Part shown: positions 6,427 through 11,181 of the stretch, piece by piece | Layout of the letters: the number at the start of each line of letters is the position of its first letter | Position numbering within the stretch: the stretch's first letter is position 1 | Assembly (NCBI GenBank): GCA_016215465.1 | Contig: JACRJT010000034.1 | Location: 1 to 64,000, forward strand | Direction: 5' to 3' | DNA length: 64,000 bases | Origin: Nitrososphaerota archaeon | Lineage (GTDB): Archaea; Thermoproteota; Nitrososphaeria; Nitrososphaerales; Nitrosopumilaceae | Program-made: the position numbers and the translations under genes | Notes under the pieces: generated by a model | What the model saw: only the letters and a program-made list of their open reading frames with translations | Told to the model about the DNA's origin: nothing | The model's database searches: none

Positions 6427-7254
6427 TCATTCTAGGCTGAAGAGGATTATTTTTTTTGGATCATGCTGGATTAGGCCAAAATGTGGCTTTGCAAAGCCGC
6501 CACTATGGTGTCCTTGCGGGCCTCCAAGTCCAACCCGGAACAAATAGTTGCTATTTTTGTTAATTTCAAATTCGCGTTTTTGCATAACAAACGATTCGAT
6601 TTTTTCTGTTGCAGGTTGAAATGGCCAGATGTTTGTAATTTCATTTTTGGTTTGCCGTATGGCTGCTTCTATATGCTGGTGGCCGCACAGTATAATAAAA
6701 TTCTCAAGTTTGGTTTTTCCCTCCTCAAATGCGGAAGATGCCTTGTAATGATATCCATAATAACTGTAAAACTCGTTATTTTCCTCAGATAGTCTTTGCC
6801 ATGTTTTTTGATATAGCCACGGATCATCTCCTTTTTTGGTTATTTTTTGTGGGTCTAATGGTCCGCCATGGACGCAGAGAAGTTTGTTTTTTGCATCTAT
6901 TATTTGCTGTTCCCCAAATGTTTCATCTTTATTTTGGTGAAAAAATTCAAGGTCTTGTTCAGATAATAATTCATGAGCCCTTGTGCTTGCAAATGAGCTA
7001 CCGCTGATTGATTTTTTGTACAACACACTTTCATCGTGATTTCCCATCACGGATATGATTGGATAAGTTTTTGAAAGCTCTTGCATTTTTTGCAGGACCT
7101 CTTTTGGGTTGGCTCCCCTCTCCAAGAGATCGCCTAGATTAATTATTCTTGAGATTTTGCCATATTTTTCTTCAAATTTGGGGGAAAGTGTAATTTTCAG
7201 AATTGTCTCAAGTCCGTCTATATCTGCATGAATGTCAGAAAACACTAAATCCAT
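6427..7254 (-). CDS. calcineurin-like metallophosphoesterase
   Basis: 275 residues. All five metal motifs are present: DIH (7-9), GDLLERG (about 42), GNHDE (about 73), the HGG motif near 129 and GHQH near 192. This is the Ser/Thr phosphatase/diadenosine tetraphosphatase-like group; it could act on phosphoproteins or nucleotides. A TATA-like TATATAATAAATT lies about 25-37 bases before the start. The mobile element inserted just upstream of this promoter (its target duplication is 7293-7300), leaving the gene intact. Confidence 0.9.
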   Translation of the reverse strand: MDLVFSDIHADIDGLETILKITLSPKFEEKYGKISRIINLGDLLERGANPKEVLQKMQELSKTYPIISVMGNHDESVLYKKSISGSSFASTRAHELLSEQDLEFFHQNKDETFGEQQIIDAKNKLLCVHGGPLDPQKITKKGDDPWLYQKTWQRLSEENNEFYSYYGYHYKASSAFEEGKTKLENFIILCGHQHIEAAIRQTKNEITNIWPFQPATEKIESFVMQKREFEINKNSNYLFRVGLGGPQGHHSGGFAKPHFGLIQHDPKKIILFSLE

Positions 7255-7291: not shown

Positions 7292-7534
7292 TCATTTGTT
7301 GGTTCTGTCAAGTCTTCGTCGGTATTTCTCCCTGTCAAATTCCGTCGGGCGAACCTGATCCCACTTTAATGGATACCATGAATAGCCGTCAAATGCCCTG
7401 AAAATATCGCCCTCAACTTTGTGTTGTTTTAGTCCCCTGCATTCATGCAAGTCTTTTTCTTCGGCTATGGCAAATCTGCCACAATTCAGGCAACGAAATA
7501 TGTCATTTCCTAGCCATGCTTTAAGAGATTTCAA
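7292..7534 (-). CDS. 80-residue zinc-binding protein of the transposon
   Basis: TTG start at 7534 overlaps the TGA of the upstream gene (TTGA), suggesting translational coupling in a three-gene operon. Residues C16-x2-C19 followed by H30-x-C32 look like a zinc knuckle. The C-terminal segment (PTEFDREKYRRRLDRT) lies within the terminal inverted repeat, and the stop codon is completed by the host target duplication, so the gene runs to the very end of the element. No family recognised. Confidence 0.7.
   Translation of the reverse strand: MKSLKAWLGNDIFRCLNCGRFAIAEEKDLHECRGLKQHKVEGDIFRAFDGYSWYPLKWDQVRPTEFDREKYRRRLDRTNK
7293..7300. repeat. left 8-bp target-site duplication
   Basis: CATTTGTT directly precedes the left terminal inverted repeat and recurs in the same orientation at 10723-10730, directly after the right one. 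An 8-bp duplication is the size known for IS6-family transposition. Confidence 0.85.
7301..7349 (+). repeat. left terminal inverted repeat, 49 bp
   Basis: Identical to the reverse complement of 10674-10722 over all 49 bases and ending sharply at both sides. It also encodes, on the minus strand, the last 16 or so residues of the 80-residue zinc protein. Confidence 0.9.
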
Positions 7535-8037
7535 GACTTAGTATCATCGCTTTGATTCTGAGTGTAGATTTTTTCGCAAGCAATTTGATCTGTTTCTTTC
7601 TTCTCTTGTTCTAGTTTTTCAACTCTTTGTTTTAGATCAATTACTATGGGCGAATCTTTGAGCATTGCTTCATTTATTCCGCCCACAATTCCGTCAACCA
7701 CTCGTTTACGAATTTCATCATCATGAGTCAAGACATCTGCAATAAAATGTGCCATATGTTTTGTGTATGCTTTACGCATTTTTTTAGCAAGATAATCAAG
7801 ACCTTTACCTACTAGAAACATACCGCCTGCCATACCTATACAGATAAGTGATAAAATTGAGAATATTCTAATGGCAACGGTGATTGACTCGGCAGTAAAT
7901 TCTGTAAGCGGGTTTACTACATAGATATAAGTAAAAAACAAAAGTGCTGGAACAATGCCAAATAAAATTATGAATTTATGTGCAGGTAGTGAATCAATCG
8001 TTTCAACGATTTCATTCATTTTATTGTGTTTAACCAT
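7531..8037 (-). CDS. membrane protein with C-terminal coiled coil (cargo)
   Basis: Start chosen at ATG 8037, one base after the stop of the RHH gene; an upstream ATG at 8064 in the same frame would overlap it by 26 bases. The 168-residue product has two membrane segments (about residues 22-42 and 57-80), a basic stretch, then a heptad-rich helix near the C-terminus (DLKQRVEKLEQEKKET). It sits between the RHH regulator and the zinc protein in one operon. Function unknown. Confidence 0.72.
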   Translation of the reverse strand: MVKHNKMNEIVETIDSLPAHKFIILFGIVPALLFFTYIYVVNPLTEFTAESITVAIRIFSILSLICIGMAGGMFLVGKGLDYLAKKMRKAYTKHMAHFIADVLTHDDEIRKRVVDGIVGGINEAMLKDSPIVIDLKQRVEKLEQEKKETDQIACEKIYTQNQSDDTKS

Positions 8038-8038
8038 T

Positions 8039-8188
8039 CTAGTTTCTCTTCCTATTCTTCTCAATCCATGATTCTATTGCTTTTTCAACCAATTCAGTTA
8101 ATGTCATTCCTTTATTGATTGCCTCAATCTTTGCCTGTTTCCAGATTTCTGGATCTACGTTAAGAGAGGTTGAACTTTTTTGTACCAT
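8039..8188 (-). CDS. ribbon-helix-helix (CopG-like) regulator
   Basis: 49 residues: a beta strand (SSTSLNVDPEIWKQAK) followed by two helices (IEAINKGMTLTELVEKAIES), the full RHH fold. It is divergent to the transposase, and the 84-base gap between them contains repeated TACCAT half-sites including a 16-bp perfect palindrome, one half-site covering each start codon. It is therefore probably the autorepressor and transposase repressor of the element. It could equally be an antitoxin-like protein, but no typical toxin follows. Confidence 0.8.
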   Translation of the reverse strand: MVQKSSTSLNVDPEIWKQAKIEAINKGMTLTELVEKAIESWIEKNRKRN

Positions 8189-8273
8189 TATCTATTATTA
8201 CCATTTAGGGTATATAACAATTATGGTAAAGTTTATCTAGCCTGCAAACTATACCATTAATGGTATAATGGTA
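8183..8273. promoter_or_regulatory. operator array between RHH regulator and transposase
   Basis: Six TACCAT half-sites lie in 91 bases: 8183-8188, 8199-8204, 8223-8228 (inverted), 8252-8257, 8260-8265 (inverted) and 8268-8273 (inverted). The fourth and fifth form the perfect palindrome ATACCATTAATGGTAT at 8251-8266. The first overlaps the RHH start codon and the last touches the transposase ATG. RHH dimers commonly bind such tandem inverted half-sites. Confidence 0.7.
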
Positions 8274-9406
8274 TGACAACAAACGAAACAAACCCAACCC
8301 GTGAAGAGAAAGGAAAGACAATAGCAGAAAAACAAGATCAAGTACGACGAATCGATTCAACACATTATCAGGTAAAATCACAATATACGGGAAACATAAG
8401 ATGGTATGACGTAATCGCTATTGGTTCAGGTTGGAACTGCACCTGTGCGGATCACAAATATAGACAGGTTTGTTGCAAGCACATTCACGCAGTAGAGTTT
8501 TCAGTCAAATTAAGAGAAGAAATCAGGAAGAAAAATACAGTTACCATTTCACCGCTCAACACATCTGAGTGTATTTACTGCAAATCCGAGAACATAACAA
8601 AAGACGGATTAAGACACAACAAGTATGGTGATATTCAGAAATTCAACTGCAAGAACTGCAAACGCTATTTCACTATCAATCTAGGCTTTGAGAAAATGAA
8701 ACATAATCCTAAAGGAATCACAACCGCCATGCAACTATACTTCTCTGGGGAATCACTCAGGAATGTAGCCAAATCACTAAGGCTTCTAGGCATGAATATT
8801 ACTCATCAGACCGTCTACAACTGGATTCAAAAATACACTGGATTGATGGAAAAATATCTAGAAAACATAACCCCGAACATTTCTGACACATGGAGAGCAG
8901 ATGAGATTTTCATTAAGGTAAGAGGAAATCCAAAATGGCTCTATGCAATGATGGACGAAGACACACGCTTCTGGATTGCAAAACAGGTTGCAGATACAAA
9001 ATACACAGAGGACATAAGACCAATGTTTCAGGAAGCCAAAAAATTCACCCAGACAAAACCCAGTGTTTTGATTACAGATGGTGCACATAATTTTCAGACT
9101 GCATACAAGCGTGAATTATTCACAATAGCACTGCCAAGAACACAGCACGTTCGCCACATCCACATGGACAGGGATATGAATAATAACAAAATGGAGAGAT
9201 TGAATGGTGAAATCAGAGACAGGGAAAAAGTAATGCGTGGATTGAAGAAAATGGATTCCCCAATGATCGGGGGATATCAGTTATTCCACAATTACATCAG
9301 GAATCATCAGGGTCTGGATAATCAAACACCCGCAGATAAGGCAGGAATCAAAATTGAGGGGGAGAACAAATGGATGACACTAATCCAGAACGCAAGCAAA
9401 CAGTAA
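8273..9406 (+). CDS. IS6-like DDE transposase with N-terminal SWIM finger
   Basis: 377 residues from ATG 8273. A SWIM-type finger (CTCADHKYRQVCCKH, residues about 59-73) comes first, then a four-Cys zinc ribbon (CIYC...CKNC, about 97-122), a helix-turn-helix (about 140-185), and the RNase H-like DDE core: first Asp in WRADE, second in ITDGAHN, Glu in KMERLNGE. The core matches IS6/IS26-type transposases, usually about 240 residues, so the two N-terminal zinc modules are extra. It acts on the 49-bp ends. Confidence 0.9.
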   Translation: MTTNETNPTREEKGKTIAEKQDQVRRIDSTHYQVKSQYTGNIRWYDVIAIGSGWNCTCADHKYRQVCCKHIHAVEFSVKLREEIRKKNTVTISPLNTSECIYCKSENITKDGLRHNKYGDIQKFNCKNCKRYFTINLGFEKMKHNPKGITTAMQLYFSGESLRNVAKSLRLLGMNITHQTVYNWIQKYTGLMEKYLENITPNISDTWRADEIFIKVRGNPKWLYAMMDEDTRFWIAKQVADTKYTEDIRPMFQEAKKFTQTKPSVLITDGAHNFQTAYKRELFTIALPRTQHVRHIHMDRDMNNNKMERLNGEIRDREKVMRGLKKMDSPMIGGYQLFHNYIRNHQGLDNQTPADKAGIKIEGENKWMTLIQNASKQ

Positions 9407-9457
9407 AGAGATTGACCCGATGGGGTTTCAAGATAACCCTGCTGGTTATTGATTATC

Positions 9458-10051
9458 TCATTTAGGCAATTTGATTTTATTGCCAAGCATTTGCCTAGTG
9501 ATTTTATTTCCTTTGGGATCGAGTATTGGTAATTCTTCATTATTCCAAAACTCAAAACAGTCTATTGCCAAATTTGTAAAATATGCCATAAAATACTTGT
9601 GATCTATTCTTTCATTATCGATGTGTTTTTTAAGAATAAAATAGGATACAACTGTCAATACTCCAAATATTAGATAGTATTGTTTTTTTGGAATAGCCCC
9701 TTCTATAACTAAGATTCCTGCCTGATCGTAATTTCTTCGCACAACATCTACGGGATTTTGGTGATCAGTGTTTAATTTGCCGTTTTTCATCAGAGTGTCA
9801 TTCCGATAGCCATTGTAGATATTCTCTTCTGCACTTTTATGTGGTGTTTCACCAATCATTTTGAAAGTATCAGTTAATGCGGATCTCAGATGCTCTTTTT
9901 TTGAATATGCTATTGTTTGCCATGCAATCAAACCCGATACGCTAGCTGCAACAAGGGCAGGAATTGCCCCTTCTAAAAGTGAAGAAAACCAATCATTTGT
10001 TTGGATATATTGATAGATTGTTCCATTGATGTTTTGTGTTTGCCAATCCAT
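9458..10051 (-). CDS. membrane protein, cargo of the transposon
   Basis: 197 residues, no cysteine-rich motif. Membrane segments lie at about 27-46 and 126-142, with a soluble stretch between them (KEHLRSALTDTFKMIGE, then VDVVRRNYDQAGILVIEG). The pattern resembles small archaeal/bacterial DUF4760-like proteins of unknown role, but that is a loose resemblance. It is convergent with the transposase, 51 bases away. Confidence 0.7.
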   Translation of the reverse strand: MDWQTQNINGTIYQYIQTNDWFSSLLEGAIPALVAASVSGLIAWQTIAYSKKEHLRSALTDTFKMIGETPHKSAEENIYNGYRNDTLMKNGKLNTDHQNPVDVVRRNYDQAGILVIEGAIPKKQYYLIFGVLTVVSYFILKKHIDNERIDHKYFMAYFTNLAIDCFEFWNNEELPILDPKGNKITRQMLGNKIKLPK

Positions 10052-10151
10052 ATTATGATGACGTTGTAATTGCTTAAAAGAACTATTTTGAAAGTGAACC
10101 AGTTCCGAATTAATTAGTTCTTTTATACTAGTATTACCTTACGAATTTACT

Positions 10152-10274
10152 ATGGCAAAATGCACCAGATTGAACTGTAGGCACGAACAATATCAACACC
10201 CAAATCCCAACACTTGTGGTGGAGCAAGTAAATGTACTACAGATGTATGTGAATGTGAAAAATTCACACCATAA
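10152..10274 (+). CDS. 40-residue Cys/His-rich microprotein in the transposon
   Basis: ATG at 10152, TAA at 10272-10274. Six cysteines (4, 9, 22, 28, 33, 35) and two histidines (11, 16) follow the pattern C-x4-C-x-H ... C-x4-C-x-C-x2-F. CTTTTATACT lies 24-34 bases upstream as a TATA box. The same overall pattern occurs in the 34-residue protein at 11189-11293, just outside the element, suggesting a small metal-binding family. Function unknown. Confidence 0.65.
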   Translation: MAKCTRLNCRHEQYQHPNPNTCGGASKCTTDVCECEKFTP

Positions 10275-10375
10275 ATTTTTAGAATTATAGTGAAATTAAG
10301 CATTTTTACAATAGGTAAAGTGGGAATTTACGAAGTTATGATCATTCTTTAATACTTGATTGAGATCCATATTAT

Positions 10376-10552
10376 GTGTCCGCAGTCGGGCTGATTGCAT
10401 TCTTAATAATTCTCATAGTTGGTGGTGCATTTCTAATGCTAAGTCCTGAATCTGTGCCTAGAAACATTGCCGAATTTGGAATGCCTGTTTTTGGGGCTGG
10501 TTTAATTGGTTTAATTATTTTTGCTATCTTGAAGTTTTTTCATATTATTTGA
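10376..10552 (+). CDS. 58-residue two-helix membrane protein in the transposon
   Basis: GTG start at 10376 and TGA at 10550-10552. Nearly the whole protein is two membrane segments (about residues 3-22 and 37-56) joined by a short loop. CTTTAATACTT lies about 22-30 bases upstream. Too short and hydrophobic to assign a family. Confidence 0.55.
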   Translation: MSAVGLIAFLIILIVGGAFLMLSPESVPRNIAEFGMPVFGAGLIGLIIFAILKFFHII

Positions 10553-10673
10553 TCTTCTTTCATTGTAGATTAGCCCTAGTCCTAAACCAAGAGATGAACA
10601 AGTAATCAACACAATTAGCAGTGATGGTATCTCAATCAGATAATTTCACCCCTATCATTCATTATGACTGACA

Positions 10674-10722
10674 CCCGACGGAATTTGACAGGGAGAAATA
10701 CCGACGAAGACTTGACAGAACC
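10674..10722 (-). repeat. right terminal inverted repeat, 49 bp
   Basis: Perfect reverse complement of 7301-7349. Read on the plus strand it carries a second copy of the codons for the end of the 80-residue zinc protein, but without a gene in front. Confidence 0.9.
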
Positions 10723-10730
10723 CATTTGTT
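10723..10730. repeat. right 8-bp target-site duplication
   Basis: CATTTGTT, same orientation as 7293-7300, directly outside the right inverted repeat. Confidence 0.85.
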
Positions 10731-10851: not shown

Positions 10852-11181
10852 ATGTATGACGATCTGGTAAAGGAGGCAATACATGGACAAACGGCAGATA
10901 GTGCGTCTGCTATAATGCAAAGCACCGTTCCAAATGAGGTAAAGGGGTTTATTCCGGATTTGGTATCGCAGCTAGATCAAGGGGTGGATCCGTCAGATGT
11001 TGCAGACCAAGCACTAAACAAGACGTTTGACATTGTGCAGTCGTCTTTGTTGGGAGATGCGTCAAACCACGTAATTGACAAATTTGGGCATAGAATAGTG
11101 GATTTGCTTTTTGGGGCACCATTTCTGAACATATTGCAAAAGGCGTCACTACTCATATCAAACAGCACAAATCCGTTTTAG
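10852..11181 (+). CDS. conserved-looking hypothetical protein, 109 residues
   Basis: A soluble, mostly helical protein without cysteines. The middle (PSDVADQALNKTFDIVQSSL) and the hydrophobic end (FGAPFLNILQKASLLI) suggest an amphipathic helical bundle. ATG at 10852; GTTAATAAAGC lies about 50 bases upstream, so the promoter is unclear. It is the first gene right of the transposon. No family recognised. Confidence 0.6.
   Translation: MYDDLVKEAIHGQTADSASAIMQSTVPNEVKGFIPDLVSQLDQGVDPSDVADQALNKTFDIVQSSLLGDASNHVIDKFGHRIVDLLFGAPFLNILQKASLLISNSTNPF

Follow-up and report, generated by a model that had tools for sequence, protein, structure and literature searches.

The window analysed here is a stretch of 64,000 nucleotides at the start of contig JACRJT010000034.1 (assembly GCA_016215465.1) of a Nitrososphaerota archaeon. 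It contains a 3422-bp unit (7301–10722), which a preliminary description had read as an insertion sequence (IS) 6-like transposon carrying passenger genes. All our evidence on this element and its relatives is sequence-based. The terminal inverted repeats (TIRs), which are included in the length of the unit, are identical at 49 of 49 positions, and the 8-bp direct repeat CATTTGTT flanks both of them as a target-site duplication (TSD); both had been correctly recognised. When we scanned the region for ends combined with a TSD, the ends of the element agreed at 24 of 24 bases, while the runner-up with an exact 8-bp duplication reached only 15 of 24. Each end additionally carries its terminal motif twice, as CTGTCAAGTCTTCGTCGG and CTGTCAAATTCCGTCGG, which had been overlooked. 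Inside lie one intact transposase gene, the sole transposase of the element, and six further open reading frames (ORFs) of 40–197 aa (Table 1).

A mobile unit whose insertion site is empty in congeners

The genes that flank the element (6427–7254 and 10852–11181) are adjacent in congeners. In five of these (working labels G010, G008, G007, G006 and G003) they lie about 167 bp apart, element-free, and the spacers align to the joined flanks of our site at 85–90% identity. Each empty site has one CATTTGT[T/G] or a diverged equivalent, and removal of 3422 + 8 bp from the element site leaves the same 167 bp. At the level of genome comparison, this shows that the 3.4-kb unit is a mobile insertion in a site empty in congeners, and bears out the earlier proposal of a single transposon together with the empty-site check that had been suggested for it. 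It is the empty site that demonstrates movement and not the perfection of the ends: intact ends had been taken as a sign of recent movement, which they do not show by themselves, because diverged members of the family described below also have perfect ends, of 50–94 bp.

Table 1 Features of the 3.4-kb element and its target duplication, in window positions.
Feature	Position	Strand	Remarks
80-aa CxxC/Cys-His putative zinc ORF, TTG start	7292–7534	-	homologues in L073, L108, L124, L105, L005, all loci of the same transposase family
Target duplication, left copy CATTTGTT	7293–7300		single copy CATTTGT[T/G] at empty sites G010, G008; diverged in G007, G006, G003
Left TIR, 49 bp	7301–7349	+	two terminal-motif copies, 7305–7322 and 7332–7348
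177-aa ORF, two hydrophobic stretches and coiled coil	7531–8064	-	26-bp overlap with ribbon-helix-helix gene
49-aa putative ribbon-helix-helix (Arc/CopG-like) protein	8039–8188	-	occupies divergent regulator slot
84-bp divergent promoter region, putative operator	8189–8272		five ATGGTA/TACCAT half-sites: 8199, 8223, 8252, 8260, 8268
377-aa IS6-related transposase	8273–9406	+	SWIM C56xC58..C68xH70; zinc ribbon C100, C103, C126, C129; DDE D210, D269, E308
197-aa helical protein, N-terminal membrane helix, weakly DUF4760-like	9458–10051	-	homologues in G019, G007, G106
40-aa Cys/His microprotein ORF	10152–10274	+	no homologue among family loci compared
58-aa hydrophobic ORF	10376–10552	+	76% identical ORF near right end of element L011 (G023)
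Right TIR, 49 bp	10674–10722	-	two motif copies, 10701–10718 and 10675–10691
Target duplication, right copy CATTTGTT	10723–10730		matches left copy

The transposase and its relation to IS6

The DDE transposase recognised in the preliminary description matches the Pfam model DDE_Tnp_IS240 at 1.2e-14 and the NCBIfam IS6 model NF033587 at 1.1e-34. The latter score, 119.9 bits, lies below the model's cut-off of 125, which is passed by the relatives G033, G062 and G010 and by a family transposase on contig C24 of the same genome. The best-listed plasmid-borne matches are distant (21–28% identity), and nearly all are annotated as IS6 family. The top fold matches of a structure model (predicted local distance difference test, pLDDT, 88.7) are transposases and retroviral integrases. 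Across 51 sequences, the N-terminal SWIM motif CxC..CxH, the zinc-ribbon cysteines and the catalytic D210, D269 and E308 are invariant or nearly so.

In a tree, 69 such transposases fall on one side of a branch with Shimodaira–Hasegawa-like approximate likelihood ratio (SH-aLRT) support of 98. On the other side lie bare IS6 transposases of bacteria and archaea and a group of transposases, about 300 residues long, with the zinc ribbon but lacking the N-terminal SWIM part; the deeper placement is uncertain because long branches join bare IS6 to the rest. This ~300-aa sister group also forms cargo elements (L206, L207, G063). One measures 4356 bp and has the TSD ACATTCAG, the other 3627 bp and the TSD CCGTATTT; the ends of each match at 20 of 20 bases.

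The label IS6-like holds in part. With the IS6 (IS26) family the element shares the DDE domain (DDE_Tnp_IS240, and NF033587 below its cut-off), GG tips with CTGT (GGTTCTGTCAAG) and the 8-bp target duplication. IS6 ends, however, measure 15–20 bp (PMC7986276) and not 49 bp with two motif copies, and IS6 elements are typically ~0.7–0.9 kb (up to 1.76 kb) with a transposase only, as opposed to 3422 bp and further ORFs; bare IS6 controls, delimited by TSD with a like script, measured 667–741 bp. Since the length of the element and that of its ends depart from IS6, we call the element IS6-related and not a member of IS6. A multigene interior, a 377-aa transposase with SWIM and zinc-ribbon domains, a divergent regulator gene and a place in the tree separate from the bare IS6 sequences compared also distinguish it from IS26-type elements of about 0.8 kb.

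A family with a constant regulator slot and exchangeable cargo

We delimited related elements by end identity and an exact 8-bp duplication among relatives and genome contigs, several of the genomes being metagenome-assembled. This yielded 49 distinct elements of the same transposase clade, 1.86–6.8 kb long and with GG..CTGT ends in nearly every case, in diverse archaea: Nitrosopumilus, Nitrosotenuis, Nitrosarchaeum, Nitrosotalea, Nitrosocosmicus, Nitrososphaera, Methanoperedens, Thermoplasmata, Bathyarchaeota and others. The terminal motif recurs within the end at 46 of the 98 family ends, among them both ends of the 7301–10722 element, where about 6 would be expected under a criterion of 2/50 shuffles or fewer; the inner copy usually sits 31–44 bp in. 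The repeated motif suggests two putative transposase sites per end.

Several observations touch on the spread of the family. The host genome of our element holds three more members (C16:3662, C24:25776 and C41:86223). One element (L182:6558-9141, 2584 bp, TSD CTTGCCTA) lies within a 55-kb IMG/VR contig, a possible transfer route. G022 (L037-L039) has 21 matches, many decayed with stop codons, perhaps from a past burst of the family. C-terminal fragments of the transposase are far commoner in thaumarchaeal genomes than N-terminal ones. We considered these fragments as non-autonomous elements and rejected the idea: 24 loci (among L172-L239) had no convincing flanking pair of TIR and TSD, so that the fragments are probably remnants of the most conserved part.

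A gene of 44–91 aa lies divergent from the transposase gene in 48 of the 49 elements, usually 40–190 bp away, and also at most further loci without defined ends; the sole element without it, L111, has a truncated transposase. By sequence we assigned its occupants to ribbon-helix-helix (RHH; 20), AbrB/MazE-like (18), zinc-ribbon (6) and YLYF/coiled-coil (4) classes. Pfam and PDB profiles back part of this assignment: some occupants match RHH_1, MazE, Zn_ribbon_8 and PF0610 models, and for the RHH-A group there is a match to the Met repressor at 0.007. The matches of the RHH protein of our element are weak but consistent (Pfam 0.0065, PHROGs Arc-like 0.0055, RHH entries of the PDB 0.18–0.31). 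The putative RHH gene is one occupant of a constant slot and not the ordinary passenger that the preliminary description had listed.

Mapped onto the transposase tree with its 41 labelled tips, the regulator classes require 19 changes, against a mean of 19.2 for shuffled labels; as far as these sequence-based labels go, regulator type is random relative to the transposase tree. The DNA between the two genes follows the regulator. Pairs of elements within a regulator subfamily share a mean of 2.37 intergenic GC-containing 8-mers compared to 0.55 for other pairs (0 of 2000 permutations), an excess that persists where the transposases are less than 45% identical. Two motifs are each restricted to one group: ACGTGGAT to four intergenic regions of the PKWKK group, and TAGGTAGA to the LRATVPEGI group, all four members of which have it. 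In our element, the five half-sites in the 84-bp gap compare with about 0.05 expected, and the palindrome ATACCATTAATGGTAT adjoins the transposase start. Because the intergenic DNA tracks the regulator and not the transposase, regulator and promoter DNA appear to travel as a cassette.

We also considered whether co-resident elements exclude regulators of one type, as in superinfection immunity, and found no general support. By hand count, the four elements of our genome have regulators of four different subfamilies (PKWKK, YLYF and RHH-A for those on C16, C24 and C41, RHH-B for 7301–10722), while G069 has three of one and G022 three of one.

The interior is exchanged as well. Of 17 pairs of elements whose transposases are at least 70% identical, 13 differ in their regulators. 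In these 13, once the transposase and the outer 100 bp are set aside, 0–2% of the interior aligns, and homology begins and ends near the borders of the transposase gene. L074 and L079, like L098 and L100, have only the transposase and the ends in common. The cargo is therefore not fixed, contrary to what had been supposed. L106 and L089 share the entire left side and not the right, which indicates that the two sides can be exchanged separately. Elsewhere in the family the cargo includes N6 and N4 methyltransferases, a ThaI-type restriction enzyme, Eco57I-like enzymes, GmrSD, AbiV, RelA/SpoT domains and proteasome-like proteins. Regarding the last, subunits resembling the proteasome (Ntn hydrolases) are carried by small transposons of the family; five match Pfam Proteasome (best 5e-18), and reading of the sequences gave the candidates L115:8823-9749, L014:285-1214, L006:213-1046 and L095:3734-4543.

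The cargo of the 3.4-kb element itself matched none of the restriction-modification or defence types found in other members, and searches of it with PADLOC, PHROGs and Pfam returned nothing convincing. The six genes of the preliminary description exist as ORFs, though three are short (7292–7534, 10152–10274 and 10376–10552); homologues in sister loci support the first and the last of these. Five other family loci have homologues of the zinc ORF, the one in L073 with 69% identity. The ORF reads out through the left TIR, so that its C-terminus is TIR-encoded and its stop codon comes from the target duplication; the zinc ORF of L108 (L108:9164-9170) apparently likewise takes its last residues and stop from target DNA. 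RHH genes similar to that of our element occur in L092, L091, L028, L025 and L006. Since the zinc ORF, the 58-aa ORF and the RHH gene have their relatives in different family loci, the element is a mosaic.

A search for cargo outside the ends, proposed earlier as a check on the single unit, gave two results: no homologue of the coiled-coil ORF 7531–8064 was found elsewhere in 250 family genomes, and the three best homologues of 9458–10051 adjoin transposase genes or fragments. A model of the latter protein (pLDDT 71) had no PDB fold match at E<=0.001, and one match, at 0.0082 and TM 0.55, to an unnamed viral fold.

Proposed mechanism, alternatives and meaning

Based on these findings, we consider it probable that the locus is an autonomous archaeal cargo transposon with an IS6-related transposase, an exchangeable regulator–operator cassette and exchangeable cargo, for which repression, end binding and transposition are predicted from sequence. 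The transposase would bind two tandem sites in each end, assisted in DNA recognition by its SWIM and zinc-ribbon domains, and the ends would be joined to the target with an 8-bp stagger, through IS6-type replicative transposition or cut-and-paste. The RHH protein and its operator would form a regulatory cassette that represses both its own promoter and that of the transposase. Transposase and ends would be the conserved chassis, around which the cassette and the cargo on either side are swapped, probably through recombination of elements that have transposase and ends in common.

Some points weigh against this proposal. TIR and TSD are not independent of detection, because the set of elements was selected for them. 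For several regulators the fold label is based on sequence pattern: at an E value of 0.01 or better, 6 of 47 match Pfam RHH_1 and 5 of 47 match MazE. The PKWKK ('AbrB-A') group, assigned by pattern alone, had no match in a PDB search, and the YLYF type is without an established fold. The shared intergenic motifs could partly reflect co-inherited promoter DNA and not operator constraint. Finally, no second copy of the 49-bp ends of the element was found in its own genome (1.70 Mb, 53 contigs), so that any present-day activity is hypothetical.

The divergent protein could instead be an antitoxin and the overlapping downstream gene (7531–8064 here) its toxin, together an addiction module that stabilises the element. 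RHH and MazE are antitoxin folds, toxin–antitoxin pairs have been described in Tn3 transposons (PMC7157771), and quite a few elements have a downstream gene of about 90–195 aa that the regulator gene overlaps or adjoins, as such pairs do. Most elements, however, have no downstream partner or a convergent gene instead, and BLAST clustering did not unite the downstream genes in a common family. In our element, 7531–8064 has no Pfam toxin match and a single weak PADLOC match (0.008, 'Orf5'). The zinc-ribbon and YLYF occupants are not known to be antitoxin types either. Thus, we regard an addiction module as unlikely.

Somewhat less likely still, in our judgement, is that the divergent protein acts in transposition as an accessory factor, required for the reaction through binding of ends or target, and not as a repressor. 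Its gene is near-universal in the clade and always adjoins the transposase, and the extra repeats within the ends fit such a factor. On the other hand, the class-specific motifs sit in the divergent promoter, elements that differ in regulator type share the end motif, and a role at the ends is hard to square with free swapping of unrelated proteins. We dismiss a plain IS6-type IS beside unrelated host genes, with outer repeats that are coincidental or the remnants of two IS in a pseudo-compound transposon: IS6 elements do often form directly repeated compound structures (PMC7986276), but here there is a single transposase, the ends are inverted, perfect and border an exact 8-bp duplication, the empty sites lack the entire 3422 bp with the cargo, and 48 other elements have the same architecture.

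The cargo transposon we propose has several known counterparts. The IS6 review names one member with a passenger gene, ISDsp3, and gives mean lengths of about 800 bp (PMC7986276). The preliminary description was in this sense right about the arrangement, cargo being nearly unknown in that review; it is not a lone case, however, but belongs to a large archaeal clade. Because a single pair of ends encloses both an IS-type transposase and passenger genes, the element counts as an IS with passenger genes (tIS), such as ISDsp3 (PMC7986276) and, in the IS1202 family, tISKpn21, tISKpn65 and tISRel10 (PMC10132070). As opposed to these, which have one extra ORF each, the elements described here carry several genes and a constant regulator slot, exchange their interior wholesale and form a large archaeal clade.

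By analogy, the closest functional counterpart is the Tn3 transposon with exchangeable toxin–antitoxin modules (PMC7157771), which likewise has a small DNA-binding gene by its transposition genes, an exchangeable module and cargo. It differs in that we found no resolvase, res or Tn3 transposase here, the ORFs of the element having been searched for the two proteins, and in that the occupants of the slot belong to several unrelated types and have no consistent toxin partner. CvkR, a MerR-type repressor of type V-K CRISPR-associated transposons (PMC9938897), is similarly an element-encoded repressor of a transposition system, in a different transposon class and regulator family. A 2019 survey of thaumarchaeal mobile elements described IS-like transposons with typically 1–2 genes and counted passenger-gene composite transposons among the classes that occur in bacteria but had not been detected in archaea (PMC6563490). 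The casposons and IS-like transposons that it covers are mobile in the same hosts, and casposons have TIR and TSD, but they use Cas1, whereas the ORFs of our element include a DDE transposase and no Cas1 match. We found no description of this transposon group in a literature search that covered neither ISfinder nor most subscription journals and preprints.

On balance, we lean towards an undescribed group of archaeal cargo transposons, with a fixed chassis and an exchangeable repressor–operator cassette of at least four unrelated types, that would change regulatory identity and ferry defence genes. IS6 is known for short, cargo-less elements that move genes only in pairs, and here a single-unit, IS6-related cargo clade spans ammonia-oxidising archaea, Methanoperedens and others, some members carrying restriction-modification and other defence genes. 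A constant slot filled by unrelated DNA-binding proteins with their own promoter motifs amounts to a natural experiment on regulator change in transposons, and the defined boundaries, motifs and empty sites make the system directly testable. If the proposal is true, these elements could change their regulatory identity, in a manner comparable to phage immunity modules, while ferrying defence genes among archaea.

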